From NCBI GenBank assembly GCA_037501455.1, contig CM074863.1:62911501-62975500 (forward strand): a stretch of 64,000 nucleotides of DNA, read 5' to 3'. Source of the stretch: Lantana camara (Eukaryota; Streptophyta; Magnoliopsida; Lamiales; Verbenaceae). Of this stretch, positions 9,601 to 56,878 are shown piece by piece. Under the pieces are notes generated by a model, which searched no databases, was not told where the DNA came from, and saw only the letters and a list, made by a program, of their open reading frames with translations. How positions within the stretch are numbered: the stretch's first letter is position 1; the number at the start of each line of letters is the position of its first letter. Position numbers and translations under genes: made by a program.

Positions 9601-9648
9601 CCTGGTCCCCAAGTCCATTATCGAGTTTTAAATTCCAAAACCAGCAAT

Positions 9649-9752
9649 GAGAGAGCCCCATCTCTCGAACAAGTAACGAGAGCACCCCGTCTCTCCAGCA
9701 AGTAATGAAAGAACCCCGTCTTTCAGCAGGTAATGAGAGAACCCCGTCTCTT
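9649..9752 (-). repeat. Four short hairpin repeats before the PPT
   Basis: There are four units about 29 bp apart at 9649-9666, 9678-9695, 9706-9725 and 9735-9752. Each is an inverted repeat around a C-rich (+ strand) hexamer: GAGAGA/TCTCTC, GAGAG/CTCTC, TGAAAGA/TCTTTCA, GAGAGA/TCTCTT. The third unit replaces G:C pairs by A:T pairs on both sides of the stem. On the - strand the loops read CGGGGT or close to it, the same loop as in LARD units 8-11. Confidence 0.8.
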
Positions 9753-11129: not shown

Positions 11130-11515
11130 CCACCTGCACCTGGCTTCCGACCCTCGTTCCCTGCTCAGGCCAATCATACCTACGTTGGACATGGGCTTGC
11201 CCCTGACTTTGTTCCAGCACACTAATTCCAGCCGTCATACCACCCCTCGTACCAGGGGCCGTACCAACAACAGTTTCAGCAGTGGTACCCTGATACAACT
11301 GTAAATTTTCGTGGCACACCAGATCTCAATTCTCTAAGCAATACAACACCTTATCGTGGTAATGATCAACTTCATGTTGGTGATTGTCCAGGGTTACCTA
11401 TTACACATACAGGTAAGATAGTATTTCTTCATCTAAAGGAGTCCTTTCTTTAAATAACACACTACGAGTACCGTCCCTCACCAAGAGTTTATTATCTGTC
11501 CAAAAATTTACTTCT

Positions 11516-12237
11516 GATAATGGTGCGTTCTTTGAATTTTGGCCTACTCATTTTCTTATTAAGGACCAGGTAACCAAGACGGTGTTGCTCCAGGGCCCTA
11601 GTGAGCAGGGAGTGTATGTGGTGTCCTCATCGAAGAAACAAGCCTTGGCTGCTGAAGTGCCTAGCATGAATGATTGGCATGCCCGGTTGGGTCACCCAAA
11701 TTCCAGGGTTTTGTAATCTGTTGTGCGAAGTTCCAGCCTTGAGTCGTCTAGCAGCAGTTTAGAACCATGTCCTTCTTGTATACTTGGTAAAATGAGTCGG
11801 ATTCCTTTAGCTTCTGTTGACCATAAGAGCATTGCTCCTTTTTATATAATTTACTCTGATGTCTGGGGACCAGCCCCTATTACCTCCAATAATGGTTTTC
11901 GGTATATGTTGCTCTTTATAGATGATTTTACTCGTTACACTTGGATTTATTTTCTGAAAAATAAAAGTGAAGTGTACTTTCGTTTCCTAAATTTTGAACA
12001 ATTGGTACATCGCCAGTTTTAAGGAAAAATAAAAGACTTTCATTCAGATTGGGGAGGGCAATACCAAAAACTAAACAAGTACTTTCAGTCCAGGGGAATT
12101 GTCCATCGGAAAGCCTGCCCTTACACCCACGAACAGAATGGTGTTGCAGAACGAAAAATAAGACATGTTGTTGATACTGGATTAACACTTCTTGCTCATG
12201 CCAAAATGCCACTAAAATATTGGAGCTTTGCCTTTGA
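11516..12237 (+). pseudogene. Copia protease end to integrase remnant (E0)
   Basis: A single frame runs from the region before integrase (FFEFWPTHFLIKDQVTKTVL) into the integrase zinc domain (WHARLGHPN...CPSC) and catalytic core. The first Asp lies in YSDVWGPAP, the second in FHSDWGGQY and the Glu in HEQNGVAERKIRHV, so all three catalytic residues are visible. Two in-frame stops occur, one before SVVRSSS (about 11714) and one at 12020-12022. The frame is cut at 12237 by the LTR of copia A, within the core domain. The protease active site upstream (11300-11500) is not readable. Confidence 0.85.
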
Positions 12238-26125: not shown

Positions 26126-27820
26126 TGTGACAGCCCGGTTCGGGGCCGGATCAATAAATGTAAGATAAGGGCAACGTAAGGGCATTTATAGAACTTGATC
26201 CGTACTTAAAATAATTTATATCATGCATCCCTACATGAAATGAGTGTTCTTATGTGGTACTAGGTGACACAAAGGGGAAAAACTACCTTTAAACCCTAAA
26301 AGCACTATTTATTCCGAACTAGCACTTTGCCGTTTTATTCGAGAGACCTTAAAGAACCTATACCTATCTTCTTAGAATTTTTGAACTCTCTTTTCGATGC
26401 TTTGAGGTTTCGTTTATGTGTCCGGAGCAATTTAAGAATTTATTTTCAAATAAAAATTTCGGTCGGTAAAATATATTTCCTTCGATAGAATGATTTAACC
26501 CTTGAGATCATCACCATAACATTGCTCGATTTTTTTCTACATTTTTGGAAAGCCTTTCGGAACTTCAAATTTTATCCTAGTATTTATTTCATAATTAAAA
26601 TAATTTTCGAAATTCAAGAAAATCACATCTTCCGAAGCTTATAACTTTTAAACCATACGTCCGATTTCGACCCGTGAGTAACTGTTTCGAAGCTAATTTT
26701 ATTTCCTAGCTCTTGGGCACTTTTCCAACTCCAAAAATACGTAATATAAAGGTGAAATTACCAGAATACCCCTGCTGTGACAATTATGTAAAGAAGGAAA
26801 CCTATTTTTGGAAATTTCATAAAATACCCCACCTTAAGTCCCAAAAATAAATGTTATTTGCACTCTAGTCCTTCCCAACAACTATAAATAAGTGGTTTGA
26901 GGTCTCATTTTCTCCCTTACACCAGCCAAAACACACGGCCCCCTCTAATAAGGTTAGTTTTCTTATTTTTTTTTTTTATGTTTTAATTAGTTTAATTTAT
27001 GTTTTAATTTATTTATTAATTATGCTAGGTTTAGGATTTAATTTATGTTTTATTTTATACATGAATTATGTGATTTAATTTATGTTTTAAATATGCATGA
27101 ATTTATGAATTATGTTTCTTATAGTATAGTTTATTATGAAATGTGTTACATAATTTAATTTTGTGACAAATTAATTATGTGACAATTATGCTAGCATGTT
27201 ATATGTTACATTTTAATTATTTTATGATCATACTTAGGTGATTTAATTTATTTCATGATTTAATTAAATGTTACATGTTATTTAATATTACATAATTAAA
27301 GTATAACCTATAGTTTTAAATGTTACATGTTATAGTATACATGTATAATATACGTATACGTATTTGATTCCAATATGTATAAATACATGTATACTTTCTT
27401 ATAAATACTATGTGTATTTCCATAATAAATACGTATGTACTTTTGTATAAATACCGTATGTATTCTAGTATAAATACCGCATGTATTCTTGTATAAATAC
27501 TATATGTACCCTGTATAAATACTGTATAAATACGGTAGGTATCCCCGTATGAATACCGTATACATACGGTACAAATACCGTATACATACTATATAAATAC
27601 ACGTATACATACAGTTTAAGTACAGTATACATACAGTACATATACCATATACTTGAATAGTGACCTTTAACCTTTGACTTTGACCTTGACCAAGAATTTT
27701 GACTTTTAACCTAATTGATCATTTCAAAGAGATGAATTCATCGGTCAAAGCCTTTTTCGAAAATTCTCAAAAACAGGGGATCAAAGTAGGTTTCAAAGTT
27801 CACATTCCTTTTCTAATTAG
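26126..27820 (+). repeat. 5' LTR of L3, truncated
   Basis: Closely matches 30974-32673 of the 3' LTR and then stops at TTTTCTAATTAG, where pol sequence begins. A TATAAATA box is at 26883-26890 (31749-31756 in the other copy). An oligo-T run and a long AT-rich segment follow. Confidence 0.9.
27340..27655. repeat. AT-rich array of TATAAATACNGTATGTAT-like units (5' LTR of L3)
   Basis: About a dozen imperfect units of 20-27 bp contain the core TATAAATAC and a symmetric TACCGTATACATACGGTA centre. Units are close to self-complementary. The array starts about 1.2 kb into the LTR. Confidence 0.75.
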
Positions 27821-30418
27821 CTTATTTCGGGGATGAATTGGCTTTATAAGTACCGAGTCAAGATGGATTGTTTCAAGAAGAAAGTTATCTTAGGAAAGGA
27901 TGAAAGTCAGACATCAGATGGACGAGGAGGACAAACACTAATGATTTCGGCAATGGAAGCAAAAAGGATGATTCAGAAGGGAGCTACAGGGTTCGTTGCT
28001 TACCTCTTAAATAGACCAAAGGATCAGAGTAAAATAGAAGAAGTGGAGGTTGTCAACGAGTTCCTAGAAGTGTTTCCTAAACACCTAAACACCTTACCAC
28101 CAGACCGTGAACTGGAGTTTGATTTTGAGACAGTCCCGGGAGCCGAACCGTTCTCTAAGGCACCCTATCAAATGGCACCGGCCGAACTCCAAGAGTTGAG
28201 GAAACAACTTGATGAATTATTAGAGGCAGGTTATATCCGCCCTAGTACTTCTCCGTGGGGAGCACCTGTGTTATTTGTTTAGAAGAAAGATGGGTCGTTA
28301 TGACTTTGCATCGACTACCGAGAGCTTAATAGGATGACGGTGAAAAATAAGTACCCTCTTCCTCACATCGAGGAGTTATTCGATGTACTTCAAGGATCTC
28401 GAGTATACTCCAAGTTAGATTTGAGGCAAGGGTACTATCAATTGAAAATTAGAGAGGAGGATATTCCCAAGACAGCTTTCAATAGTCGCTACGGACATTT
28501 TAAGTTCGTGGCAATGCCCTTTGGGCTAACAAACGCCCTAGCTGCATTTATGGATATGATGCATCGGATTTTTCGGCCGTTTCTTGACAAGTTCGTGGTG
28601 ATCTTTATTGATGACATCTTGGTCTTTTCCAAAACACCAGAGGATCATGCCAAACATCTTCGGTTAGTGTTGAGCACTTTGCTGGATCACAAGCTTTATG
28701 CAAAATTCAACAAATGTGAGTTTTGGTTGGAAAAGATCTCATTCTTAGGACATATCATATCTGGTTCAGTAGTCGAAGTGGATCCCTCGAAAATTGAAAC
28801 GATTTTGGATTGGAAACAACCAAGGAATCCTTCTGAGGTACGAAGCTTTTTGGGACTTGCAGGATATTATCGAAGATTCGTACAAAATTTTTCAAAGATA
28901 ACTGCACCACTTACTCAGTTAACCAAGAAAGAAGGAAAATTCGTATGGACAGAGAAATACGAACAGAGTTTTCAGGAATTAAAGAAAAGATTAACTACCA
29001 CACCTATACTAACCTTACCAGAAGGGAAGGAAGGTTACACCGTCTACATCGATGCTTCGAAAGAAGGGTTAGGATGCGTTCTGATACAGCATGGAAAGGT
29101 GATAGCATATGCATCAAGAAAGCTTAAACCACATGAAGCCAACTACCCCACCCATGATTTGGAGCTAGTAGCGATCGTCTTTGCCCTCGTAAAATGGAGA
29201 CATTACTTGTATGGGGTAACCTTTGAAGTGTTCACGGATCATAAAAGTTTGCGGTACTTATTCACTCAAAAGGAGCTAAACATGAGACAAAGAAGGTGGA
29301 TGGAATTTCTGGAAGACTATGATTGTATAATTCAATACCATCCTGGAAAGGCTAATGTGGTGGCTGATGCTTTGAGTCGAAAGGCTAGTCTAGCGCATAT
29401 CCTGGGGCATTCTTTGGAGAATGAGAGAAAACCAGTTCAAGTGATTCCTAGAGCTAAGTTGGCGAACCTAATAATTTCGTCACCGCTGAAGGATCGGTTG
29501 ATAAAGACGCAATCTATCGACGGATGGATTAAGAAGTGTCTCAATTCCAAGGAGAAAGATGATGAGATAAAATTTAGTAAAGGTGAAGATGGAATCTTGA
29601 GATATAAGAACAGAGTTTGTGTGCCCTCAACTATCCGAAAAGAAATACTTGATGAAGCACACAAGACATGTTATACAGTATACCCTGGAGGAACAAAGAT
29701 GTACCAAGATCTCAAGAAGCAGTTTTGGTGGAACGGAATGAAAAGAGACATTGCTGAATATGTCAAGAAATGCTTAACTTGTCAAAAAGTTAAAGCAGAA
29801 CATAAAAAACCAGCAAGAAAGTTACAACCGCTACCAATTCCTACATGGAAGTGGGAGAAGATAACCATGGATTTTGTTACTGGGTTACCTAAAGTCAAAG
29901 GAGGACAAGACAGTATATGGGTCATAGTCGATAGATTGACAAAATCAGCACACTTCCTACCAGTCAAGACTACGGATAAAGTTAAATCCTTAGCAAAACT
30001 GTACCAACAGGAAATTGTGAGATTACATGGAGTGCCGGTGAGTATAGTGTCTGACAGAGATCCAATGTTTACGTCACAACTTTGGCAAAATGTTCAAAGT
30101 CTGATGGGAACCAAGTTACATTTCAGTACAGCGGCGCACCCACAAACAGACGGACAGTCAGAAAGATCGATTAAATATCTGGAGGATATGTTAAGAGCGT
30201 GTGCTTTGGACTTTCCGGACAGTTGGAAAGATTGTTTACCTCTCGTGGAGTTTGCATACAATAACAGTTATCAGGCTTCAATTCAAGCAGCTCCATATGA
30301 AGCCTTATATGGGAGAAAATGCAGATCTCCATTATATTGGGATATGGATGAAGCAAGGGATACCTCTGAGGGAACTCCCAGGAACAAAGTACTCGAATGG
30401 ATTGAAAAACCTACATAA
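27821..30418 (+). pseudogene. pol: L3 pol: protease end, reverse transcriptase, RNase H, integrase
   Basis: One frame of about 865 codons with two nonsense codons: TAG at 28280-28282 and TGA at 28301-28303, the latter in place of the Arg of LRLCIDYR. Starting from the end of protease (GMNWLYKY), RT follows with [17 protein letters not shown] and the catalytic FIDD. RNase H runs from [11 protein letters not shown] to ADALSR. The integrase zinc domain has lost its second His (CYTVYPGG instead of the usual VHPG). The DDE core is intact: Asp in [10 protein letters not shown], Asp in SDRDPMF, Glu in [12 protein letters not shown]. The frame runs off near 30400, where a frameshift separates the integrase C-terminus. 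Confidence 0.93.
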
Positions 30419-30962
30419 AAGATTTAAAATAATCAGGCAAAGAATGAAAGCCACCCAGGACAGACAGAAGAGCTATGCCGACAAAAGAAGAAGGGATTTA
30501 GAATTTAATGTGGGTGAGAAAGTGTTTCTGAAAGCATCGCCAAGGAAAGGGTTCACAAGAATTGGGAAAGGTGGAAAATTAAACCCTAGATACATAGGAC
30601 CTTTTGAGATACTGGAACATGTGGGCCCAACAGCGTATCACCTGGATCTACCAGCAAGCTTAACAGGGATCCATAATATATTTCATGTATCCCAACTTCG
30701 TAAATACTTTGCCGATGAGGCACAGGTGGTGCCAGTAGAGGAAGTTCAGTTAGAACCTAATCTAACCTACGAGTTGAAGGCGGTTAAGATCCTGGATAAG
30801 AAATTCCAAGAATTAAGAAATAAAAAGATTCCATTGGTTAAGGTTTTATGGAAAAGGAACGGTACGGAGGAAGTTACCGGGGAAACTGAAGAAAAGATGC
30901 AAAAGCACTATCCCAAATTGTTCAAAGATCACGAAGAGAATCTGAGGACAAATTCTTCTTAA
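30395..30962 (+). pseudogene. L3 integrase C-terminus and chromodomain (+1 frame)
   Basis: The coding sense continues in the +1 frame from about 30395 (KIIRQRMKATQDRQKSYADK). Next come the GPY/F-like module (RYIGPFEILEHVGPTAYHL), IHNIFHVSQLRKY, and a chromodomain-like tail with VKILDKKFQELRNKKIPLV and KVLW. In the family this tail targets integration to marked chromatin. The aromatic residue usually found in EEATWE is Gly here (EEVTGETEE), so the histone-binding cage is probably lost. It ends at a stop 11 bp before the LTR, which is normal for Tekay/Del elements. Confidence 0.88.
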
Positions 30963-30973
30963 GGAGGGGAGGT
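30958..30973 (+). promoter_or_regulatory. Polypurine tract of L3
   Basis: AAGGAGGGGAGG follows the pol stop and runs directly into the 3' LTR start TGTGACAG at 30974. The preceding CTGAGGAC motif is shared with the LARD's 3' end. Confidence 0.88.
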
Positions 30974-32254
30974 TGTGACAGCCCGGTTCGGGACCAGATC
31001 AATAAAGGTAAGCTAAGGGCAACGTAAGGGCATTTATAGAACTTGATCCGTACTTAAAATAATTTATATCATGCATCCCTACTTGAAATGAGTGTTCTTA
31101 TGTGGTATTAGGTGACACAAAGGGGGAAAACTACCTTTAAACCCTAAAAGCACTATTTATTTCCGAACCAGCACTATACCATTTTATTTGAGAGACCTTA
31201 AAGCACCTATATCTATCTTCTTGGAATTTTTCAACTCTCTTTTCGATGCTTTGAGAATTTTTCAACTCTCTTTAAACCGTTTATGTGTCCAGAGCATTTA
31301 AGAATTTATTTTCAAATAAAAATTTCCGTCGATAAAATATACTTCATTCGATAGAATGATTTAACCCTTGAGATCATCACCATAACATTCCTCGATTTTT
31401 TTCTACATTTTTGGAAAGCCTTTCTGACCTTCAAATTTTATCCTAGTATTTATTTCATAATTAAAATAATTTTCGAAATTCAAGAAAATCACATCTTCCG
31501 AAGCTTATAACTTTTAAACCGTACGTCCGATTTCGACCCGTGAGTAACCGTTTTGAAGCTAATTTTATTTTCTAGCTCTTGGGAATTTTTCCAACTCCAA
31601 AAATACGCAGGAGAAAGGTGAAATTACCCGAATACCCCTGCTGTGACAATTATGTAAAGAAGGAAACCTATTTTTGGAAATTTCATAAAATACCCCACCT
31701 TAAGTCCTTAAAATAAATATTATTTGCACTCTAATCGTTCCCAAAAACTATAAATAAGTGGTTTGAGGTCTCATTTGCTCCCTTACACCAGCCAAAACAC
31801 ACGGCCCCCTCACTAGAATAAGGTTAGTTTTCTTATTTTTTTTTTATGTTTTAATTAGTTTAATTTATGTTTTAATTTATTTATTAATTATGCTAGGTTT
31901 AGGATTTAATTTATGTTTTATTTTATGCATGAATTATGTGATTTAATTTATGTTTTAAATATTTATGAATTTATGAATTATGTTTCTTATAGTATAGTTT
32001 ATTATGAAATGTGTTACATAATTTAATTTTGTGACAAATTAATTATGTGACAATTATGCTAGCACGTTATATGTTACATTTTAATTATTTTATGATCATA
32101 CTTAGGTGATTTAATTTATTTCATGATTTAGTTAAATGTTACATGTTATTTAATATTACATAATTAAAGTATAACCTATAGTTTTAAATGTTACATATTT
32201 AATTAATTGTTACATAATTATACTTGACCAATTGCTATATGTTATAATATACAT

Positions 32255-32510
32255 GTACAATATACGTATACGTATTTGATTCCAATATGTATAAATACGT
32301 GTATACTTTCGTATAAATACTATGTGTATTTCCATAATAAATACGTATATACTTTTGTATAAATACCGTATGTATTCTAGTATAAATACCGCATGTATTC
32401 TAGTATAAATACCGCATGTATTCTTGTATAAATACTGTATAAATACGATAGGTATCCCCGTATAAATACTGTATAAATACGGTATATATACCGTATACTT
32501 GAATAGTGAC
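32255..32510. repeat. AT-rich TATAAATAC array (3' LTR of L3)
   Basis: Homologous to 27340-27655 but with fewer units. The GTATACATAC-rich second half is largely missing, so the array has changed length between the two LTRs since insertion. Confidence 0.75.
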
Positions 32511-32846
32511 CTTTGACCTTTGATCTTTGTGTTTGACCTTGACCAAGAATTTTGACTTTTAACCTAATTGATCATTTCAAAGAGACGAATTCAACGGTCA
32601 AAGCCTTTTTCGAAAATTCTCAAAAACAGAGGATCAAAGTAGGTTTCAAAGTTCACATTCCTTTTCTAATTAGGGTTGTTTAAGACCCTAAGACCATACC
32701 CTTAAGCTTTTGACACGAGCTTTCTAATGAGACTAATCGTTTACTCGAATCCTTTCTTCGGGAAAGATTATTTATTGTTTAAATGTGCCGCATTCTTTTC
32801 AATCTTATACTTTAATACTTGACCATCCGCACTCAATCATGCATCA

Positions 32847-36440: not shown

Positions 36441-36586
36441 TTTTGGGATAATGCTTCAAGTTTAAAGTTAATGATCTCTGATATACGTCCTGTTCACTGT
36501 TATACTGCTTTGATTTTGGGATAATGCTTCAAGTTTAAAGTTAATGATCTCTGATATACGTCCTGTTCACTGTTATACTGCTTTGA
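36441..36586. repeat. Exact 73-bp tandem duplication in the L3 LTR
   Basis: 36441-36513 and 36514-36586 are identical, both starting TTTTGGGATAATGCTTC. The lack of differences indicates a recent duplication. Confidence 0.95.
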
Positions 36587-36981
36587 TTAAAGGTTCAGAC
36601 TTCTGAACTCTGTGTGCTTATGCACTTTTGTTATTCTGAATGCAAGCTTTGGAAATTTTATTATATTGGGCCCTGGCGGTCTGGTTAAGTAGTAGATCGG
36701 GAGGCGTGCGCCAATGGCTACTATGATACTGGCCGCCGTACTGACCTTGGTGATGGTTTAATCAGAGGTTGGTTACTCCACATCGAAGGTCGGGAGAGGT
36801 GGTAAATTCCTCCCGTTTTGCACGTCACCGCGAGGTAGCTCCCTAGGCGCGACAATAAGGGGAGAAGGGGTGGTGTATGTGTTGGAAAACAGGAATCAGA
36901 AAGCAGCGGAAATTTAAAAATTTTTCCAACAAAAAGATCTTAGACTCGCAATCGTGAATCCAAATTCGTAGAGATCAAGAA

Positions 36982-39900
36982 TGTAACACCCCGCTCGTCC
37001 AACGTATAAGGTACGCCACATTCCAACTTTATTATGTGTCTAATTATATTATTTTGTGTTTTGCCTGGCCCTATTTTGAACTCTTTTAGAGTTTAAGGGC
37101 CTGTTTGTAATTTTCTCTTTTTTGGGGGTTTTCTGGTCACTTCTCGTTTGGTTGAGATTTTGACCTCTTTGACCCCTTTAACGTGTTCGGGGCAACGAAA
37201 CGAGTCCGTAGACTCTAAGTTTGCCCCATTCTGACTTCGTTAGCCCGTTCGTCCGATCGTTTTTGCTTACGAGGACCCGAGATATATACCCCGGATCCTC
37301 GTTTTGCGTGCCAGAATTTCAGATCAGCCTCAGTCGTCTTTCTCCCGCGATCTAACACTGCTCACACACACTCGAAGGTGTATTTTCACACACAATCCAA
37401 ACTCGCTCGTTTCTCGACGGATTTCGACGAACCAATAGTGCTTTTTGACGAGCTCGAAGACGCGATCACAACCGTACCAAGATCTTGACCAACCGATGAA
37501 CGACGGCGGAGTTATCGCCGATTTTCAGTCACACGCGGAGGGTGGTGGCGGACCGTGGCTTCGCCGCCCATTCGCGGCGGTCTCCGGCGGACTTCCGGCG
37601 ACACGCGCCTCCTACCCAGTTGAAGGGGGACCTGGCGCATCGACCAGCGTTGGCGGCGCGGCCATCCGGGCCGCGGTTGGGCCGCACGCGCCGCCCGAAG
37701 TGATGGTGGCGGACGCCCGACACTGTAGCACGGCGGCTCCGCTGTGCTCCGGCGAGTTTCGCGGGCGGAGCTTGACCCTATTCGACCTATTTTGATCTCC
37801 TGAGTCCATTTCTGACCTCAAATCAAGCAACCGGTGACCGTAGGTGGCGGAAACCGGCGGTGACGCGGCGGTGCGACTTTGGCCGGCGATTTGGGACCTT
37901 TTCCGGCCGGTTTTGGTGGTGCTCCCTTTACAAAAGTTGCTTGGAATGACAAAACTTAGCGGATGGCATCGACGGCGTTCCAGGAACCGGCCGTTGGCGG
38001 CAGAGCGGTGGTGAACCTGCCTGAACCGGCGGCTTCTCTCTCCGGCGATTTTTCTGGTGATTTGACTTGGGGCTTTTGTAGGGCTCGTTGCGGGCTTTCC
38101 ACCGGTATGCTCGGATTCCATTTTCGTTTTACGGTTTGTATTTAATTTCAGTTTTCGTCCTTGGAATTCGGTTCAGTTTTTCGTCAACGAAGTCCCACGT
38201 GTTTGCTATTTTCTGAAATTGGTTTGAGGGCTTTTGTCAAGCAGGCCGAGGCACACGTTTCTTTCCTTCCGGGGATTTTTCCGACCACCGGAGGCGGTGT
38301 TCCGGTGGCGGCCGGTGACTGTTCGGCCGGCTGCGGTGGCGGTATTCCGGCGACCTCCGGACCGTGTGTTCCTTTCGTCGTGGTGAGTCTATCACCGCTT
38401 TCCGTTCGTCAATCGGATGCCCGGTTGATTTATTATGATTTATTTTGTATAATTTGAATATTTGGAATTAATTGTTTTAATTGCAATAAATTGTGTATTG
38501 TTGTATTTGTCGATCAATATGTATGCTAATGGATATAAAATCATGTATTAAGTGAAATGTGATAGGTATGAATATATTGATTCGTAAATTGGACCCCGAT
38601 ATGTTGAATTCATGCTATTTGTTTAAACTTGAAGGGGTGTATGTGTAATTTCACTAAACATATAAATTGTATGATTTCAATTAATCCTTGTCGATTGATA
38701 AACAATTATGCTAATTATGATTTCGATTAAGATAAATTATTATGGTTAAGCTTGAAGCTTTTTAATTAGTCTAATCACTTAAATTGAAATAATCCTATTA
38801 TGCGATATATGAATTTATATGAAATAATGTGATATGCATTGCCTTCCATTTTATTTATTTGAATTGATTGTGTATGAGAACATCTCTTGATCTACTTTGT
38901 GAATATGTGGAGCTATGCGATATTGTATTTTACAAGTAATTAGTATGATTATGAACTTGGCTTATGTGATTGCATTTCTTAAGTACTTGAGCATGTGCCG
39001 TGTGTCTTTATATGGTTGTCTGAGTCTGAGTCTGAGTTTTGTACTATGTTTTGTGTGATCAGTTGGTACAGGTGCACCCGGGGTGGTGACTTGTGGTCGT
39101 GCAGGTTCCGGGGTGGACCACTTGCTTTGGGTTTTGGGCTTTGTCTGGTACCAGGTGAGGCTGTTTTTGTTTTAGCTATGTAACAAACCTTACAACCCTT
39201 ATGTGAAAAGCTTTGGCCAAAACCTTATGATTATTTATATGTTACTTTTAAAGTAAAGTCATCGAGTAAATATTGATCGAGTAAACCCTTTTCAAATGAA
39301 TTATGAAATATGTTATGTTTCCTATGAAATGAAATGTTTTGGCGAGATTATGCATGTATTTATGTTCACGGGCCCAGGGACTTAGTGCAAGTGGCTATCC
39401 GGGGAGGCAAGGGCCGACGGTGATCCCTTGTACTAGTCCCAATTTATGTACGGCGGTACCGGACCTCGTCAGGAGATTGGCGGGGAAAGGGAGCTGAGTG
39501 CCATCTGGGGAGTCATGTTCCCCTTTTGGTCAATGATTGGGTGGTCGGGCCTTGCAAACCCACCACCAACCTGGAGGAAGAAGGTTGGAACTTATTTATG
39601 ATTATGATTATGATTATGATTATGTTATGATTAATAGGCACCGTGCGGGAAGGCCGGGACACGGATTGCCCAAACGAATATGTGTAGGATATGATATGAT
39701 TTATGATCTGTGTGTATTATGATATATTGCATGATCACCTATTTAAAGTATTACTGATATTTGTCGTACACAGTCGGAGTTTGGTTGGAGATGATGCACG
39801 CTCACTCGCCGAGCCTATATGTTTATGTATGAATTATGAACTTAATGAGTTTAATATGAATAGTCGTAAAGTCTGAGCATTGCTTAGTCATTCTTTTGCC

Positions 39901-40529
39901 CTTTTGGGAACTAACTTTAAATAAAACCTTGCTCGGGATTTATGACTTGCATGTGCATGTTTTTATATATATTTATCGCTCCTGCTCGCTCAGTCTTCTA
40001 GAGACTGACCCTCCCCCTTCTTTTCCACTTTTCAGTTCTTGCAGGTTTGAGCTAGGCGGCCTTGAGTCTGTGTCGGTCTGTTTGATTTGTTATATACCTT
40101 GTTTTGATTTGTGAAGGAATTATGTATATGATATGTATATATTTGCAGGTTGGTACTCATGATTTGGATGTATGAATTTCGGGACAGGTTAGGACAGTTG
40201 CTCGGTTTAGATGAACCCGTTTTGATTATATGTTTGATCGGGACAGGTTTCTAGGACAGTTGAACCCGTTTAGCTGATGTTGAATTACTTTTTGAAATAT
40301 ATGAATTATGATTGCTGATTAAGGTTTTTGAGAATTCATATTTTGTATCGCTTCCGTATTCAGGTCTTGCATATTTACGCTTGTACGGGGTTTAGGTACC
40401 GCCTAGCTTAGGAGTGGTTTTTGTTTGTCACCCGTTCCCTATGACTTGGTGCGTGTGCGGACTTTCCATTTCGTATACGTGTCGGGTCATAGTGCGGGGG
40501 TGTGGTGCCCCACCGCTTGGGGTGCTACA
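36982..40529 (+). repeat. 5' LTR of the LARD (3548 bp)
   Basis: TGTAACACCCCGC to GGGGTGCTACA. A possible TATA motif, ATATATA, lies near 37273. A strongly GC-rich stretch with many CCGG and CGGCGG motifs fills 37500-38400, unlike the AT-rich rest. A TATGAT microsatellite is at about 39597-39625. The 116-codon open frame at 37445-37795 resembles no family I know and is probably incidental to the high GC content. Confidence 0.93.
39450..39518 (+). repeat. 69-bp conserved LTR block (LARD copy)
   Basis: Identical to 1644-1712. The sister copy in the 3' LTR starts at about 45573 and differs at a few positions near its beginning. Confidence 0.88.
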
Positions 40530-40536
40530 TCTTAAG

Positions 40537-40549
40537 TGGTATCAGAGCT
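40537..40549 (+). promoter_or_regulatory. Primer-binding site (tRNA-iMet) of the LARD
   Basis: TGGTATCAGAGCT, seven bases after the 5' LTR, is complementary to the 3' end of plant initiator tRNA-Met. Confidence 0.92.
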
Positions 40550-42412
40550 ACCAGGTTCAGAACCGGTGCTCTGGAGTCGTGTCGTGTCAGTTTAGGTCGG
40601 ACGGCATAGGAATACTTGTGCATTGCATTCGTTTGATGAGAAATTTTGACTTCTCTGCATGAATTTGTTTAAGCTTATATGATTGTGTGCACACTATGAT
40701 TACGATTCTTGCAAAATTATCACTGTTATGCTTTAAATTTTATTAAAATTACGTATTGCATTTGCATTACTTAAGTGTTCTTAATTGTTTTTATTACTTG
40801 ACATATCCACGTACTAACCTGCATGCATAGATATTTATTCAATTTGTGAATTGCAGGGAGTTGGCTTGTTGACAAAATTTTTAATTGATCGTGACAATAT
40901 TTCTCGCTTCTATAAATTGATGACAGAAGATTCAAGACTACCATGCCTTGATTACTTGAATAAAGGATAAATGGATTTCTGAAAGAATTCGACAATATCT
41001 AGATGCTAAACTTATGGAAACAGGTATTATGCATTCATAGCACGTGCATCATGCATTGGATTAAATTATAATTATTTTGAACATTTGTTCTACGTGCTTG
41101 ATTGCCTTCTTTGCTGGATATGAGTGCCTGCCATTTACATCCCTAATCCCGCATGCATTAGTTTTGTGGTTATATTTAGGTGAGTTTGTTACCTGTTTCA
41201 ACGAGTACTGATTTTAGTGGAAGCTTCATTGGGATCTGAATAGGAGTGGATCAGAAAGTGGACAGTTGATTTAACAAACTCGGGGTATAGAGTGGATAAA
41301 AGAAGATGTCTGTATACAAGGGAAACAAGAGACCTTTTAACTAACGAGGTGCCTTCAGGATATATACTTAACTACTTGGGGGTACTCGGGGTTAGCAAAT
41401 TTTATAAGGGAAGTCAGAATTTCTAAATCTGAATGGCATAAGGCGACAATGAAGGAATCAAGGCACTTGTACAATTCAGAAAATTCTAAAGAGGGAATCG
41501 GATTACTATTATAGAGACACCACCAGAGTAGTTACTCTTACATAAAGGGAAAAGGGGGAAAATTTTTTAAGCTATGGGATTTAGTGCTGAGGTCATTGAA
41601 GATCAACTCCACCAAATATTGAGGATAGGGGCATCATTTACAACGACGGTGTACTAAGTAAGATCGTTTAAAGATTCTTCATCTATTTCCCGACGATGGT
41701 CCTGAGAGATTTTACCGTTGGAAGAAATAGCAATTCCCGATTACCGAGGATTTTACTGGGATTTCAAGAGACCCCACGGATCACTTTACTCCGAGAATCA
41801 AGTGAGGCGGTCCAAGATCATTTGGGTACCCAAGAATATGAGGGAATATTAAAGAATGCAAGTTTGAACGTAAGGATTGGAACCACTGCCAATCAAGGAT
41901 TCGATTATCCTTCCAAATTAAAGAATTGCCAACCTCGACTTCAATTCCACGGTGAACGGTACCTTAAGCATTCATGGCATTTGCATCCATGCATTTTACA
42001 AGTAATTATATTTTATTTTGCTTGATGTATGTGACAACGTGTAATGTTTGATGTTGCTCGATTGTAATAACGTGACTAACTGCTTTAATTTTTCATAGCT
42101 TAAAATTTGTTGTTTTGTTGTTAATTCTTGTAAACTGAATGGAATACTTGTGTGAATTGTTCGTGTCTCTATGTTTATAATTTCTTTGGTTACTCACTAA
42201 CCCTTCATGCACATACAAGCATATTGTGGTTTTATTTTTCAGAGATTCCATCGCGATATCCCCCTTAAGTTGAAGCATGGATGTTGAATCAGTATTCTAG
42301 GGACACCGATATCAGTAGTGTTAAGGTACACTAAACATGCATCACATGTTTTACATCAAGTGCTACTTTAATGTGTGTATGTATGAATGCTGAATAAGTG
42401 AACTTGTGTGTT
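40550..42412 (+). other. Non-coding interior of the LARD
   Basis: About 1.9 kb without gag or pol similarity in any frame. Short open frames (for example 109 codons from 41696) have no recognisable motif. AT-rich, with runs resembling leader sequence. Whatever packaging or replication signals the element needs must be here, in the hairpin array or in the LTRs. Confidence 0.75.
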
Positions 42413-42784
42413 AGGGAGTTGTTGAGATCTTTCTATTTATGTGTTAGGGGGATGTGGGATTCTCCCTATTTATGTGATAGAAAGATGTTGGATTCTTTCT
42501 AATTATGTGAGCAAGAGATGCTGGATTCTCTTGGTGTTAGATATTTGGGAGATGCTGGATTCTCTCGAATTTAGGGGTTTGAGAAATGCTGGATTTTCTC
42601 AAACTAGAATGTTTGGAAGATGTAGAAGTCTGCCAGACTTAGGTTGAGAGACGGGGCTCTCTCGATTACGTGGTTGAGAGACGGGGTTCTCTCAATTCTG
42701 TGCCTGAGGGACGGGGTTCTCTCTTTTGATGTGCTGGGAGACGGGGCTCTCTCTCTCTTGCGTGCTGAGAGATGGGATTCTCTC
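42413..42784 (+). repeat. Tandem array of 12 covarying hairpins
   Basis: Unit starts at 42413, 42445, 42478, 42512, 42543, 42577, 42612, 42644, 42674, 42706, 42736 and 42767 (period 30-35). Stems differ yet pair: TAGAAAGA/TCTTTCTA, CAAGAGA/TCTCTTG, GTTTGAGAAA/TTTCTCAAAC, TTGAGAGA/TCTCTCAA, GGGAGA/TCTCTC. Units 2-6 share the loop TGNNGGAT and units 8-11 the loop CGGGGC or CGGGGT. G:T pairs occur in several units and only unit 7 has a plain mismatch. The array ends about 300 bp before the polypurine tract. Confidence 0.9.
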
Positions 42785-43057
42785 TTGGTTGTTGAGGCTT
42801 AGTTACAGGTGGCCAGACAGCAGCTAGCCAACGATGAGGGTGCGACGGTATTGAGCTTTGGTTGCAGTGGCCTAGTGGAGATTGAACGAGTTTGAAGCGA
42901 CCAACGGTCAAGTGTTGAACAAACCTCTGGGACTACGGAACTCTGAGGGGAGTTGATGCAATTAGTGGAAGTAAACTTAACAGCCAGGGCTTTTACTCTA
43001 CACGATTTCAGGAGATGGATTGAAGTATTCCAACTCGAAGCTTTATGACTCAGTAAT

Positions 43058-43094
43058 AGGACCTGAGGACAGGTCCTTTTGAAGGAGGGAAGAT
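43058..43094 (+). promoter_or_regulatory. Hairpin and polypurine tract of the LARD
   Basis: AGGACCT (43058-43064) pairs with AGGTCCT (43071-43077), then GAAGGAGGGAAGAT (43081-43094) runs into the LTR start. The - strand gypsy fragment has AGGTCCTTTTAAGG at the same place. Confidence 0.85.
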
Positions 43095-46000
43095 TGTAAC
43101 ACCCCGCTCGTCTAACATATAAGGTACGCCACATTCCAACTTTATTATGTGTCTAATTATATTATTTTGTGTTTTGCCTGGCCCTATTTTGAACTCTTTT
43201 AGAGTTTAGGGGCCTGTTTGTAATTTTCTCTTTTTAGGGGGTTTTCTGGTCACTTCTCGTTTGGTTGAGATTTTGACCTCTTTGACCCCTTTAACGTGTT
43301 CGGGGCAACGAAATGAGTCCGTAGACTCTAAGTTTTCCCTATTCTGACTTCGTTAGCCCATTCGTCCGATCGTTTTTGCGTACGAGGACCCGAGATATAT
43401 ACCCCGGATCCTCGTTTTGCATGCCAGAATTTCAGATCAGCCTCAGTCGTCTTTCTCCCGCGATCTAACACTGTTCACACACACTCAAAGGTGTATTTCA
43501 AACACAATCCAAACTCGCTCATTTCTCGACGGATTTCGACGAACCAATAGTGCTTTTTGACGAGCTCGACGATGCGGTCACAACCGTACCAAGATCTTGA
43601 CCAACCGACAAACGACGGCGGAGTTATCACCGATTTTCAGTCGCACGCGGAAGGTGGTGGCGGACCGCGGCTTCGCCGCCCATTAGTGGCGGTCTCCGGC
43701 GGACTTCCGGCGACATGCGCCTCCTACCCAGTTAAAGGGGGACCTGGCGCATCGACCAGCGTTGGCGGCGCGGCCATCCGGGCCGCAGTTGGGCCGCTCG
43801 CGCCGCCCGAAGTGGTGGTGGCGGACGCCCGGCACTGTAGCACGACGGCTCCGCTGTGCTCCGGCGAGTTTCGCGGGCGGAGCTTGACCCTATTCGACCT
43901 ATTTTGATCTCCTGAGTCCATTTCTTACCTCAAATCAAGCAACCGGTGACCGTAGGTGGCGGAAACCGGCGGTGACCCGGCGGTGCGACTTTGGCCCGGG
44001 ATTTGGGACCTTTTCCGGCCGGTTTTGGTGGTGCTCCCTTTACAAAAGTTGCTTGTAATGACGAAACTTAGCGGATGACATCGACGGCGTTCCAGGAACC
44101 GGCCGTTGGCGGCGGACCGTGGTGGACTGGTGGTGAACCGGCCTGAACCGGCGGCTTCTCTCTCCGGCGATTTTTCTGGTGATTTGACTTGGGGCTTTTG
44201 TAGGGCTCGTTGCGGGCTTTCCAACAGTATGCTCAGATTCCATTTTCGTTTTACGGTTTGTATTTAATTTCAGTTTTCGTCCTTGGAATTCGGTTCGGTT
44301 TTTCGTCAACGAAGTCCCACGTGTTTGCTATTTTCTGAAATTGGTGTTGAGGGCTTTTGTCAAGCAGGCCGAGGCACACGTTTCTTTCCTTCCGGGGATT
44401 TTTCCGACCACCGGAGGCGGTGTTCCGGTGGCGGCCGGTGACTGTTCGGCCGGCTGCGGTGGCGGCATTCCGGCGACCTCTGGACCATGTGTTCCTTTCG
44501 TCGTGGTGAGTCTATCACCGCTTTCCGTTCGTCAATCGGATGCCCGGTTGATTTATTATGATTTATTTTGTATAATTTGAATATTTGGAATTAATTGTTT
44601 TAATTGCAATAAATTGTGTATTGTTGTATTTGTCGATCAATATGTATGCTAATGGATATAAAATCATGTATTAAGTGAAATGTGATAGGTATGAATATAT
44701 TGATTCGTAAATTGGACCCCGATATGTTGAATTCATGCTATTTGTTTAAACTTGAAGGGGTGTATGTGTAATTTCACTAAACATATAAATTGTATGATTT
44801 CAATTAATCCTTGTCGATTGATAAACAATTATATTAATTATGATTTCGATTAAGATAAATTATTATGGTTAAGCTTGAAGCTTTTTAATTAGTCTAATCA
44901 CTTAAATTGAAATAATCCTATTATGCGATATATGAATTTATATGAAATAATGTGATATGCATTGCCTTCCATTTTGTTTATTTGAATTGATTGTGTATGA
45001 GAACATCTCTTAATCTACTTTGTGAATATGTGGAGCTATGCGATATTTTATTTTACAAGTAATTAGTATGATTATGAACTTCGCTTATGTGATTGCATTT
45101 CTTAAGTACTTGAGCATGTGCCGTGCGTCTTTATATGGTTGTCTGAGTCTGAGTCTGAGATTTGTACTGTGTTTTGTGTGATCAGTTGGTACAGGTGCAC
45201 CCGGGGTGGTGACTTGTGGTCGTGCAGGTTCCGGGGTGGACCACTTGCTTTGGGTTTTGGGCTTTGTCTGGTACCAGGTGAGGGTGTTTTTGTTTTAGCT
45301 ATGTAACAAACCTTACAACCCTTATGTGAAAAACTTTGGCCAAAAACTTATGATTATATATATGTTACTTTTAAAGTAAAGTCATCGAGTAAATAATGAT
45401 CGAGTAAACCCTTTTCAAATGAATTATGAAATATGTTATGTTTCCTATGAAATGAAATGTTTTGGCGAGATTATGCATGTATTTATGTTCACGGGCCCAG
45501 GGACTTAGTGCAAGTGGCTATCCGGGGAGGCAAGGGCCGACGGTGATCCCTTGTACTAGTCCCAATTTATGTATGGCGGTAAGAGACCTCGTCAGGAGAT
45601 TGGCGGGGAAAGGGAGCTGAGTGCCATCTGGGGAGTCATGTTCCCCTTTTGGTCAATGATTGGGTGGTCGGGCCTTGTAAACCCACCACCAACCTGGAGG
45701 AAGAAGGTTGGAACATATTTATGATTATGATTATGATTATGTTATGATTGATAGGCACTGTGCGGGAAGGCCGGGACACGGATTGCCCAAACGAATATGT
45801 GTAGGATATGATATGATTTATGATCTGTGTGTATTATGATATATTGTACGACCACCTATTTAAAGTATTACTGATATTTGTCGTACACAGTCGGAGTTTT
45901 GGTTGGAGATGATGCATGCTCACTCGCCGAGTCTGTATGTTTATTTATGAATTATGAACTTAATGAATTTAATATGAATAGTCGTAAAGTCTGAGCATTG

Positions 46001-46647
46001 CTTAGTCATTCTTTTGCCCTTTTGGGAACTAACTTTAAATAAAACCTTGCTCGGGATTTATGACTTGCATGTGCATGTTTTTATATATATTTATCGCTCC
46101 TGCTCGCTCAGTCTTCTAGAGACTGACCCTCCCCCTTCTTTTCCACTTTTCAGTTCTTGCAGGTTTGAGCTAGGCGGCCTTGAGTCTGTGTAGGTCTGTT
46201 TGATTTGTTATATACCTTGTTTTGATTTGTGAAGGAATTATGTATATGATATGTATATATTTGCAGGTTGGTACTCATGATTTGGATGTATGAATTTCGG
46301 GACAGGTTAGGACAGGTGCTCAGTTTAGATGAACCCGTTTTGATTATATGTTTGATCGGGACAGGTTTCTAGGACAGTTGAACCCGTTTAGCTGATGTTG
46401 AATTACTTTTTGAAATATATGAATTATGATTGCTGATTAAGGTTTTTGAGAATTCATATTTTGTATCGCATCCGCATTCAGGTCTTGCATATTTGCGCTT
46501 GTACGGGGTTTAGGTACCGCCTAGCTTAGGAGTGGTTTTTGTTTGTCACCCGTTCGCTGTGACTTGGTGCGTGTGCGGACTTTCCATTGCGTATACATAT
46601 CGGGTCATAGTGCGGGGGTGTGGTGCCCCACCGCTTGGGGTGCTACA
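43095..46647 (+). repeat. 3' LTR of the LARD (3553 bp)
   Basis: Matches the 5' LTR along its whole length with scattered substitutions, many of them C/T or G/A at CpG, and a shorter TATGAT microsatellite (about 45717-45737). I judge identity to be in the high nineties percent by eye; it was not computed. Confidence 0.93.
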
Positions 46648-47603
46648 AAGAAACTCACTTAGGTAGTAGCTTTCTTGACACTTTTTGAGCCGTCCTCAAA
46701 CGCGCTTCATGCGGTAATGGCAACCCGTCCCTCGAAATCTCTTTCTACTTCAGAATCCATTGTAGGGATAACAATCCACACCAACCTGGATTCAAAACAT
46801 GTTAGGGAAGTTCTTAACGATATAACATAAAGAAAGAAATATGAAACGAGAAAGGCATGATTGAAACTCCCTTCGAAAACCAGTTTTGCGAAAGTAGAAA
46901 TCTGCCAGCCATAAAACCCTCGTGAAAAAATTCATCCTTCAAGATATGGACGAACGATTTTCGCCATCTTCTTTGGTTCGATTTTTCACTCGTTTTCTGT
47001 TGGGTTCAGAATCGTTTCATCATCCCTTCTGGTCGTTTTGCTTGATCCCCACTCCTTGGTAAAGCTCGAATCTTTAAAACTTCTAACTTGAAGCTCTCTA
47101 GAGATAGTCCACCAACTTGGCTACAATCTAACTAGTAAGGATGCTAGTTCTCTAGTTAGTGTTGAGGCTTAACCTAGGGTTTATTTGATCTTGGAGAAAG
47201 GATGGTGTTCAACACATGAACCAAAAGAATTGTCAATTGCTCTCTAAGGGGAGCATGAGCTTCCCTATATATAGGAAAGGGAGGGGTGGCCAAAAATCCT
47301 AGTCCTTATGGATTAAGGATTTTGGTCCCTCTCTCCTATTACTTGATCATCAAGTAATTTTGATTTTGACTTTGAATTCAAATTCAAATCAAATTTTAAG
47401 AGAGCTAAAATATCCAAACCCTTTTGGATATTATTATACTTTATTTATTAATAAATAAATAACTTATTTTATCTAATTAATTAATTTATAGTTAATTAAC
47501 TAGATTATTTTTCTCCAAAATTAGACTTTCTTTTTAATTCAAAATTAAACCAAAGTTTATTAAATAATTAATAAATTAATTATTTAATATTTAATCAAAT
47601 AAA

Positions 47604-47661
47604 CACGTGTCCCAATGACACGTGTCCAGTCACGTGACCCACACGTGTGGTTTCACACGTA
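47604..47661. promoter_or_regulatory. G-box cluster, left LTR of copia D
   Basis: CACGTG at 47604, 47619, 47631 and 47642, and a mutated CACGTA at 47656. The cluster lies about 330 bp upstream of the TATATATA box in the element's own (- strand) direction. Confidence 0.8.
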
Positions 47662-48805
47662 TGGGACCCTCTAGGCCCGATTAACTCGTTTAATCATTTT
47701 AAAGCCTCAACTCATGTAACCAAGTTGTTGTGTGTGACCCTCTAGGTTCTCAATTCAATTAGCAGTGACCCTAATTAATTAATCAGTCCACAGATTAAAC
47801 GACCATAGTCTAGCAACAGGTGTTTAACCCCTAGTTTAATTGGAATGTTCGGATTCGACAGAACCTTTAAGTCATTGATTCATGTGAGATACAATCCTCC
47901 TACTTACTATCTCTCTACCATGATCTAGGGTAAGGGAATAATTAGAACCCTAATAATTTGGTCTTAAAGCTAAGTGCATTTCATATCCATTTGATCTCAA
48001 TCCAAGAAACCCTTTTCTTGATGTCTTGATCTACTGCCTTGGCCAAGGACTCCATATGGTATATGAATGACTTACACAATAAGAGATCACCTTGCAAACG
48101 CAAGTGTAGGTCCTTTCTTGATTCTCATTCACTTTCATGAGTCACTTGTGCAGCCCCAGCATAAGCCTTGAATCAGTTGTCTAAGGCGACACCCTTTAAA
48201 GCTTATACCTAAGACTACAGAGTTAACTCATAAAGTGACATGGAACCTCAAGTCTAAGGATCAATTAATCATATCAATGACTCGTGAGATATTTCCTAAT
48301 CTGGAAGTTTCCATTTCCTGAAATAGAAACTTCCTTTCCCATTTAGGAATCTTCTCACACGAGGCACCTCAGTGAACTTACTTATTAAAGTAAGCACCCG
48401 CATGTATCATGCAGGTATCAACTATACACTTTGCACCTACATGAAACAAGGTGGTCCTTCTTAAGGGCGTGATCCCACAAGCAAGCCTTAAAGGAGTCAG
48501 GTTGACACTCCCACTATCTGTAGGACTCTTCGGCTTGGAGTATTTTACTAATCATGACTTATGTGATATTGGGCTCGTTCCATGAACCATTTCACCTAAA
48601 TGGTAGAGTCCTAAAGTCATCAGGATTAGGGGAGTTCTCATACATGCGCACATAATGGAAACACACAAAACACGTATTGTCATATAAAGAAGTGTTTGCC
48701 TATGATGATTAATAAATCGTATATTATTCAAAGATTGTCTGTGATATAAGAAAAGTCCCAAAGCAGATTACGTCGAATCGGCTTTCGAGGGCACTATTCC
48801 TAACA

Positions 48806-53744: not shown

Positions 53745-54384
53745 TGCCTGAAACCACCCGTTCAAGGGGCACCGCCGCGTGGCAGCATGCGCGCGCGCAT
53801 CGCGCACAGTGTGCGGCAGTTGCCGCCCGCGCTACTGCCGCACGCTGTGCTCGCGCTGGACGTGTGCAGGCGGGCGGTCTTGGCCAGGCGCTCGCGTGGT
53901 TGCGGGAGGTGCTAGGCGGGATGTCCTGCGCGGCTGCAGGACGTGTGGGCGGTGACTCCCGTGCGGTTGGGGGAGCCTCGTGCGGGCAGTCCCGCACGGT
54001 CGTGGGACAAGTGGGCGGCGGCGATTGGCGAGGCCTCGCGTGCTACGCCTTAGCACGCGCGAGCCTTGCCTCTTTCGTTCGCAACGCGATTTCGTTTTTC
54101 GTATCTCAAGTTTCTCACAGCGTGCGACAGTTGCCACCCGCGTTACTGCCGCACGCTGTGCGCGCGCTGGACGTGTGCGGGCGGGCGGTCTTGGCCAGGC
54201 TCTCGCGCGGTTGCGGGAGGTGCTAGGCGGGATGTCCCGCGCGGTTGCGGGAGCCTCGTGCGGGCAGTCCTGCACGGTCGCCGGTGGCGATTGGCGAGGC
54301 CTCGTGTGCTACGCCTTAGCACGCGCGAGCCTTACCTCTTTCGTTCGCAACGCGATTTAGTGTTTCGTATCTCAAGTTTCACAG
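53745..54384 (-). repeat. GC-rich, strongly self-complementary tandem duplication in the copia D leader
   Basis: Copy 1 is 53805-54115 (311 bp) and copy 2 is 54116 to about 54384; copy 2 lacks an internal stretch of about 40 bp. Each copy has a 16-bp stem, CACAGTGTGCGGCAGT with ACTGCCGCACGCTGTG (one mismatch), a GTGCGGG/CCCGCAC stem, and a GCGTGCTA/TAGCACGC stem. GC content is far above the AT-rich neighbours. It lies about 230-870 nt downstream of the primer site on the - strand. Open frames here are a by-product of GC content. Confidence 0.85.
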
Positions 54385-54611: not shown

Positions 54612-54626
54612 GCTCTGATACCACTT
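54612..54626 (-). promoter_or_regulatory. Primer-binding site (tRNA-iMet) of copia D
   Basis: GGCTCTGATACCACT on the + strand is AGTGGTATCAGAGCC on the - strand, directly after the 5' LTR. Confidence 0.93.
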
Positions 54627-56878
54627 GTTGGAAAACAGGAATCAGAAAAGCAGCGCAAATTTAAAAATTTTTCCAACAAAAAGATCTTAGACTCGCAATC
54701 GTGAATCCAAATACGTAGAGATCAAGAAACTCACTTAGGTAGTAGCTTTCTTGACACGTTTTGAGCCACCCTCAAACGCGCTTCATGCGGTAATGGCAAC
54801 CCGTCCCTCGAAATCTCTTTCTACTTCAGAATCCATTGTAGGGATAACAATCCATACCAACCTGGATTCAAAACATGTTAGGGAAGTTCTTAACGATATA
54901 ACATAAAGAAAGAAACATGAAACGAGAAAGGCATGATTGAAACTCCCTTTGAAAACAAGTTTTGCCAAAGTAGAAATCTGCCAGCCATAAAACCCTCGTG
55001 AAAAAATTCATCCTTTAGGATATGGACGAACTGTTTTCGCCATCTTCTTTGGTTCGATTTTTTCACTCGTTTTATGTTGGGTTCAGAATCGTTTCATCAT
55101 CCCTTCTGGTCGTTTTGCTTGATCCCCACTCCTTGGTAAAGCTCGAATCTTTAAAACTTCTAACTTGAAGCTCTCTAGAGATAGTCAACCACCTTGGCTA
55201 CAATCTAACTAGTAAGGATGCTAGTTCTCTAGTTAGTGTTTAGGCTTAGCCTAGGGTTTATTTGATCTTGGAGAAAGGATGGTGTTCAACACATGAACCA
55301 AAAGAATTGTCAATTACTCTCTAAGGGGAGCATGAGCTTCCCTATATATAGGAAAGGGAGGGGTGGCCGAAAATCCTAGTCCTTATGGACTAAGGATTTT
55401 GGTCCCTCTCTCCTATTACTTGATCATAAAGTAATTTTGATTTTGACTTTGAATTCAAATTCAAATCAAATTTTAAGAGAGCTAAAATATCCAAACCCTT
55501 TTGGATATTATTATACTTTATTTATTATTAAATAAATAACTTATTTTATCTAATTAATTAACTAGATTATTTTTCTCCAAAATTAGACTTTCTTTTTAAT
55601 TCAAAATTAAACTAAAGTCTATTAAATAATTAATAAATTAATTATTTAATATTTAATCAAATAAACACGTGTGGCACACGTGTCCCAATGACACGTGTCC
55701 AGTCACGTGACCCACACGTGTGGTTTCACACGTGTGGGACCCTCAAGGCCCGATTAACTCGTTTGATCATTTTAAAGCCCCAACTCATGTAACCAAGTTG
55801 TTGTGTGTGACCCTCTAGGTTCTCAATTCAATTAGCAGTGACCCTAATTAATTAATCAATCCACAGATTAAACGACCATAGTCTAGCAACAGGTGTTTAA
55901 CCCCTAGCTGAATTGGAATGTTCGGATTCGATAGAACCTTTAAGTCATTGATTCATGTGAGATACAATCCTCCTACTTACTATCTCTCTACCAAGATCTA
56001 GGGTAAGGGAATATTTAGAACCCTAATAATTTGGTCTTAAAGCTAAGTGCATTTCATATCCATTTGATGTCAATCCAAGAAACCCTTTTCTTGATGTCTT
56101 GATCTACTGCCATGGCCAAGGACTCCATATGGCATATGAATGACTTACAAAATAAGAGATCACCTTGCAAACGAAAGTGTAGGTCCTTTCTTGATTCTCA
56201 TTCACTTTCATGAGTCACTTATGCAGCCCCAACATAAGCCTTGAATCAGTTGTCTAAGGCGACACCCTTTAAAGCTTATACCTAAGACTACAGAGTTAAC
56301 TCATAAAGTGACATGGAACCTCAAGTCTAAGGATCAATTAATCACATCAATGACTCGTGAGATATTTCCTAATCTGGAAGTTTCCATTTCCTGAAATAGA
56401 AACTTCCTTTCCCATTTAGGAATCTTCTCACACGAGGCACCTCAGTGAACTTACTTATTAAAGTAAGTACCCTCATGTATCACGCAGGTATCAACTATAC
56501 ACTTTGCACCTACATGAAACAAGGTGGTCCTTCTTAAGGGCGTGATCCCACAAGCAATCCTTAGAGGAGTCAGGTTGACACTCCCACTGTCTGTAGGACT
56601 CATCGGCTTGGAGTATTTTACTAATCATGACTTATGTGATATAGGGCTCGTTCCATGAACCATTTCACCTAATTGGTAGAGTCCTAAAGTCATCAGGATT
56701 AGGGGAGTTCTCATACATGCGCACATAATGGAAACACACAAAACACGTATTGGCATATAAAGAAGTGTTTGCCAATGATGATTAATCAATCGTATATTAT
56801 TCAAAGATTGTCTGTGATATAAGAAAAGTCCCAAAGCAGATTACGTCGAATCGACTTTCTAGGGTACTATTCCTAACA
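54627..56878 (-). repeat. 5' LTR of copia D (2252 bp)
   Basis: TGTTGGAAAACAGG (54627) to ACTATTCCTAACA (56878) on the + strand. TATATATA is at 55343-55350 and the G-box cluster upstream of it. The segment ATCAAGAAACTCAC at about 54721 is the undisturbed equivalent of the LARD target site. Confidence 0.93.
55666..55734. promoter_or_regulatory. Six G-boxes in 69 bp, right LTR of copia D
   Basis: CACGTG at 55666, 55677, 55692, 55704, 55715 and 55729, spaced 11-15 bp, about 320 bp upstream of the TATA box on the - strand. The palindromic G-box is the classical site of plant bZIP and bHLH factors, including ABA and light regulators. Confidence 0.85.

Follow-up and report, generated by a model that had tools for sequence, protein, structure and literature searches.

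A tandem array of hairpin units with partly covarying stems upstream of the 3' LTR of a pol-less retrotransposon in Lantana camara

Known 3' repeats and the element carrying the array

LARDs and TR-GAGs are types of non-autonomous LTR element, and a question about such elements is how their RNA comes to be chosen by the proteins of another element. Hypervariable repeats in the 3' region of plant Ty3/gypsy elements are said to have been described by Macas et al. in 2009. Excerpts of two reports describe, for the Ogre/Tat and Retand elements of this group, hypervariable tandem repeats located after the coding part and ahead of the 3' LTR (PMC7004042, PMC11963269). As far as these excerpts go, the array described here (array A) resembles such repeats in this position, some of them also being found often in elements that have lost pol; the known repeats are variable in sequence and length, whereas array A is composed of hairpin units whose stems covary in part and whose number is stable within the families that were sampled. 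Neither hairpin nor secondary structure appears as a term in PMC11963269 (0 occurrences), and a limited literature search, based in part on excerpts, returned no description of covarying or structure-preserving hairpin units in 3' tandem repeats. Pol-less elements are already known to have tandem repeats close to the 3' LTR, and the apparently new feature is the structure-preserving hairpin unit.

Array A is located in a window of 64,000 nucleotides (C9:62911501-62975500, to which plain coordinates refer throughout) of a genome of 1.27 Gb in 378 contigs. Its host is a LARD-like LTR retrotransposon without pol (36982..46647, +) with TG..CA ends, flanked by the TSD AAGAA (36977-36981 and 46648-46652). 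The 5' LTR (36982..40529, +) and the 3' LTR (43095..46647, +) are 96.9% identical; the primer binding site (PBS), an exact match to TGGTATCAGAGC at 40537..40548 (+), is one we take to be of the tRNA-iMet type, and the polypurine tract (PPT) is a purine run ahead of the 3' LTR (43081..43093, +). The 2.6-kb internal region has many stops in all three sense frames, its only ORF to be scanned (41672-42022, upstream of the array) had no Pfam match, and no gag or pol of Ty3/gypsy type was seen in the element itself. Of the features expected of a LARD, an LTR pair with TSD, a PBS and a PPT are found in this element, which is like LARDs and TR-GAGs in its long LTRs, PBS, PPT and absence of pol; a relative at 9.6 kb, the array-B element, is like them through its gag remnants. 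The array and the hairpin on the PPT side are not known to be part of the definition of either type. The element was inserted into an older one, apparently on the - strand, whose LTRs lie at 36880-36981 with 46653-48805, and at 54626-56878. The 5' untranslated side of this older element (53780-54380) is GC-rich with more hairpins and has similar counterparts in the loci L025, L029 and L030; the hairpins at 53.8-54.4 kb were considered as part of the array system and rejected, as they belong to another element. A perfect 73-bp tandem duplication is present at 36441-36588.

An earlier note on this DNA had described twelve tandem inverted repeats with two loop classes, and both points were borne out. 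The twelve units, each an inverted repeat of ~30-34 nt, occupy 42412-42789 (+), with TRF periods of 30-34 bp. Units 1-6 (42412..42605, +) have a long loop, which is TGNNGGAT in units 2-6; unit 7 (42611..42638, +) is a degenerate hairpin with one A-G mismatch; and units 8-12 (42642..42789, +) have a short loop, CGGGGY in units 8-11 and the intermediate TGGGAT in unit 12. Unit 1 is likewise imperfect, with a T-T inner pair and two G.T pairs, and pairing is lost at the outer pairs 7-8 in units 10-12. The same note had put the array just upstream of the PPT; it is upstream, but at a distance of ~290 bp (array end 42789, PPT 43081-43093). The sense strand of array A folds at -143.9 kcal/mol (z -5.9 against 100 dinucleotide shuffles) and the antisense strand at -87.6 (z -6.2), and since both are similarly far below their shuffles the fold alone picks no strand. 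No Rfam match was obtained in the window at the curated threshold. Among the loop complements, ACCCCG occurs six times in the array-A element, including one near the start of each LTR, and such LTR starts recur in other elements; GCCCCG, ATCCAGCA, ATCCAAC, ATCCCACA and ATCCAG occur 0 times in the element. G-quadruplexes formed by the GGGG loops were entertained as a possibility. A search for two-unit patterns gave 0 strict and 2 loose matches in viral contigs and 0 strict and 19 loose matches in genome contigs, and the 21 loose matches were discarded by eye as probable chance hits or unrelated bacterial repeats.

Pairing in the arrays, the PPT hairpin and other hairpin clusters

Covariation of the stems, also claimed in the note, was assessed by aligning the twelve units of array A on the loop (84 cells) and shuffling the 3' arms among units. 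The array has 71 Watson-Crick (WC), 8 G.T, 0 A.C and 5 other cells, against shuffled means of 59.5, 11.7, 4.8 and 8.0, respectively (P(WC) 5e-5), and 54.6 WC cells were obtained when neutral evolution with 85% transitions was simulated along an NJ tree of the units. The 22 units of four arrays have 132 WC among 154 cells, against 115.8 when shuffled, a value reached in 0 of 20000 shuffles, with seven double WC changes as compared with one-sided departures of 6 G.T, 1 A.C and 4 other. For the long-loop class, represented by the 7 long-loop units of array A and the 2 of the 12 units of L037 that differ from A in the long-loop stem, 94.4% of cells are paired as against 81.8% when shuffled, five pairs are altered on both sides (reached in 2 of 500 shuffles), the covariation score was matched by 0 of 500 shuffles, and sliding the partner lowers pairing to 38-63%. 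The short-loop class (16 rows, leaving out unit E1 of L038, which has a 7-nt loop, and the equal L037 units of the class) showed no excess, with 89.3% of cells paired both as observed and when shuffled and a covariation score matched in 122 of 500 shuffles; taken alone, these units gave P(WC) 0.06 and P(WC+GT) 0.64. Their stem is nearly constant in units 8-12 of array A and relatives, and a G-C to A-T double change is seen in the short-loop units B2 and D4. Without array A, the arrays B, L040 and L038 gave P(WC) 0.07. Covariation above shuffles and neutral simulation therefore holds for array A overall, where it is carried by units 1-7, and is absent from the short-loop units.

The second array of the window, array B, consists of four short-loop units (9649..9748, -) in another element, which has gag remnants (9882-10583, -) and its own PPT hairpin (9598-9616, -). 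Its Retrotrans_gag match is just under the cut-off (23.8 vs 24.1 bits, E 5e-5), and the remnants include weak zinc-knuckle matches. The fold of array B is not more stable than that of its shuffles (z 0.23), and a protein search with the ORF across it gave 5 candidates, none at E <= 1. Near this element, at 10632-12022 (+), are copia-type gag and integrase matches, both under the Pfam cut-offs. In a content-blind sample of 27 stretches of 10 kb, arrays were found by motif in three, L037 (12 units), L040 (4) and L038 (2). The array is a family trait, present in A-type copies, array B and the L040- and L038-type families, and each of the arrays A, L037, B, L040 and L038 lies between a GGTGAACGGTA-like segment and a PPT hairpin. 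It is not a lineage-wide feature, unlike, apparently, the PPT hairpin, since no array was seen beside the PPT in the pol-bearing L032 and L045, nor in L031 and L034, two of the seven elements without visible pol in the stretch read (1.4-2 kb in these two).

The PPT hairpin is a short hairpin directly 5' of the PPT, with a stretch rich in T or in pyrimidines after it, and covaries across the 11 elements that carry it. In the array-A element it is GGACCTG-AGGA-CAGGTCC (43059..43076, +); the other carriers are the array-B element, an element with its hairpin at 30938-30955 (+), L031, L032, L034, L035, L037, L038, L040 and L045. The stems are GGACCTG/CAGGTCC, GGACTTG/CAGGTCC, GAACCTG/CAGGTTC, GAATCCG/CGGATTC and GAATCTG/CAAATTC, the last with one C.A mismatch. 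Pairs were counted by script, and 75 WC and 1 G.T were found among 77 cells (shuffled mean 62.0, reached in 0 of 20000), with P 0.017 for the five distinct stems alone; single hairpins fold modestly below shuffles (z -2.3 for the array-A element, and -1.6). As the hairpin is found both in elements with pol (L032, L035, L045 and the window element at 30938) and in elements without it, it looks like a feature of the lineage; the assignment of pol to L032, L035 and L045 is based on inspection by eye and on their DNA similarity to one another. An element with terminal repeats 87.5% identical spans 26126-32673 (+) and is similar to the pol-bearing L045.

Hairpin clusters with a core of ACACGGCCGTGT or CACGGGCGTG and varying outer stems were also seen in other repeats, at 22715-22852 (-) and 18926-19140 in the window and at 2351-2478 and 7671-7882 in L031, the first within a solo LTR (24103-21003, -) with a TSD, GAAAT, read by eye. 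Counted with one row per distinct flank pair, the 20 core matches have 68 WC among 120 cells at the outer six positions, against 43.0 when shuffled, and the 8 exact cores 21 among 32, against 13.1 (P 0.009). With 9 G.T and 13 A.C cells there is no G.T excess, the strand of the elements being unsorted in this count.

Copies in the genome and the age of stem variants

A genome search with the array-A stretch gave 3,914 first-look candidates, and the best 40 matches, the window's own included, all have at least 95% identity. For the L040-type stretch, 40 matches were listed down to 87% (first-look 5,644) and for the B-type stretch 41 down to 83% (first-look 3,825), each including its own place; the three first-look figures are candidate places and not copy counts. 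The stem word GAAAGACGGGGYTCTTTC, which is changed on both sides relative to GAGAGA/TCTCTC, occurs 716 + 698 = 1,414 times genome-wide, and its reversed control 0 times. The A-type sample comprised 38 copies, namely the window, L037 and 36 fetched of the 39 other matches, three close neighbours being left out, and the L040-type sample comprised 21, L040 and 20 fetched of 40 matches. Unit number differs between families (12, 4, 4 and 2) and is 12 in 37 of the 38 A-type and 4 in 18 of the 21 L040-type copies, all of which were picked by full-length similarity. Pairs of array copies 6.4-6.5 kb apart were observed at C1:112353636/112360139, C7:41765625/41772060 and C4:62187111/62193466, which suggests tandem elements of the form LTR-internal-LTR-internal.

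Stem variants were counted at those of pairs 1-7 whose column majority is a standard pair (78 pairs in the A family and 27 in the L040 family, where variants with a gap as partner were left out), and between-unit events over pairs 1-6 of 22 units. In the 38 copies of the A family, private variants, found in one copy only, kept 8 pairs and broke 19, and variants shared by at least two copies kept 6 and broke 3 (Fisher P 0.11 against private). Differences between units kept 13 pairs and broke 5 (P=0.007 against the private 8/19, the pair sets and arrays of the two counts differing slightly). The shared variants of the L040 family kept 1 pair and disrupted 4, these being at pairs 6-7 or at places where an insertion is present in two rows of the alignment, and its private variants kept 1 and broke 11; with both families pooled, shared variants kept and broke 7/7 and private ones 9/30 (P=0.09). 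Private variants are presumably mostly post-insertion, and as they mostly break pairs while between-unit differences mostly keep them, it appears that fresh mutation breaks the stems in most cases and inherited change in most cases keeps them. The contention of the earlier note that pairing is kept where neutral decay would break it is accordingly favoured by the array simulation, the shuffles and the age gradient of the A family, whereas the contrast of shared with private variants reaches only P 0.11 and, when pooled, 0.09. Three stem variants of the A family occur in at least 4 copies, all of them A-T/G.T exchanges, and G.T segregates with A-T in A1, A2 and A10 of the A family and in D3 of the L040 family. 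Private transitions at WC pairs of the A family gave 6 G.T and 5 A.C, as even a division as would be expected if selection were absent, and loops in this family are no more conserved than spacers.

Possible causes of the pairing and a possible partner

We tentatively favour, with a confidence slightly short of even, the reading that the array is a selected multivalent sense-RNA structure, the likeliest form being a zinc-knuckle Gag-binding site acting in trans. Within the full-length sense transcript, each unit would form a local stem of a purine arm and a pyrimidine arm with an exposed G-rich loop; selection would act on pairing and not on stem sequence, and stems would drift in pairs via G.U intermediates while units duplicate. 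The best-supported part is that pairing is maintained and stem sequence is not. Action as sense RNA (the note had proposed RNA or single-stranded cDNA) is suggested by the one-sided changes, which give more G.T than A.C (6 to 1 in the 22 units and 9 to 2 in all 34 units; binomial one-sided P 0.06 and 0.03), while the fold favours neither strand. Counting against the reading are the short-loop units with no excess of pairing, the fold of array B, the stem variants of the L040 family, loops no better conserved than spacers in the A family, and the elements L031, L034 and, beside the PPT, L032 and L045, in which no array was seen.

The main rival, which we consider unlikely, is a mutational process without selection, in which a hairpin in cDNA or DNA leads to a template switch that copies the change of one arm to the other and duplication of units spreads the result. 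Template switching within a stem is known as quasi-palindrome correction. It would yield double changes without function and would explain the unrelated hairpin clusters of other repeats, with their excess of WC cells (68 of 120) and their 9 G.T and 13 A.C; it predicts neither a preference for G.T over A.C nor a long-lived G.T polymorphism, and the asymmetry at 6 to 1 (9 to 2), the P values being weak, and the shared polymorphism in A1, A2, A10 and D3 speak weakly against it, in small numbers. It is quite unlikely, in our estimation, that array A is an ordinary hypervariable tandem repeat before the 3' LTR that happened to start from an inverted repeat having one purine arm and one pyrimidine arm, in which transitions alone leave most cells pairable. 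Such an origin fits the short-loop units and the differing unit numbers of the families, and tandem repeats are documented at this place in plant elements, including some that have lost pol, in the excerpts of PMC7004042 and PMC11963269; the long-loop units, however, exceed shuffles that keep the arms intact, array A exceeds the neutral simulation even with its 85% transitions, and the two sampled families each keep a stable number of units. A structured RNA with another job, such as splicing or intron retention, 3' end formation, dimerisation or RNA protection, seems more improbable still. By eye, a donor-like GGTGAACGGTA with T-rich sequence is present ahead of the arrays in A, L037, B, L040 and L038, and an acceptor-like TTTTTCAG or TTTTACAG before the array in A and L037, but the acceptor-like sequence 3' of the array differs between these two.

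Returning to the favoured reading of a Gag-binding structure, recognition of the array by a helper's Gag in trans, which the earlier note had given as one example, is plausible by analogy, since an element without pol needs a helper and the loops carry unpaired G, which retroviral zinc knuckles bind; the gag remnants of the array-B relative, with their weak zinc-knuckle matches, were a further reason for choosing Gag as the candidate partner. Each unit would offer a site to which the zinc knuckles in the Gag of a related element bind, and this repeated binding would assist packaging and reverse transcription of the pol-less RNA in trans. Retroviral packaging signals, such as the SL2 and psi hairpins of HIV-1 and the psi of MoMuLV, are formed by several neighbouring hairpins, as is array A; they comprise few hairpins and sit near the 5' end, whereas the candidate Gag site described here has twelve tandem copies near the 3' end. 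According to excerpts of a review of these viruses, exposed guanosines are the target of the NC zinc knuckles in HIV-1 and MoMuLV, packaging was not significantly affected when the GGAG loop of HIV-1 was replaced, and isolated hairpins were not bound by MoMuLV NC (PMC7599994). In a broader and rather doubtful version, the pol-less elements of the lineage would win packaging by multiplying a hairpin for the helper's Gag, a 'multivalent ticket' with the loop as its code and drifting stems, and other repeat families would have evolved clusters with other cores in the same way.

The array, with its thousands of candidate places in the genome, offers a definite candidate signal that assays of binding and packaging could take up, and it allows one to ask whether some supposed satellite-seed arrays are functional RNA.
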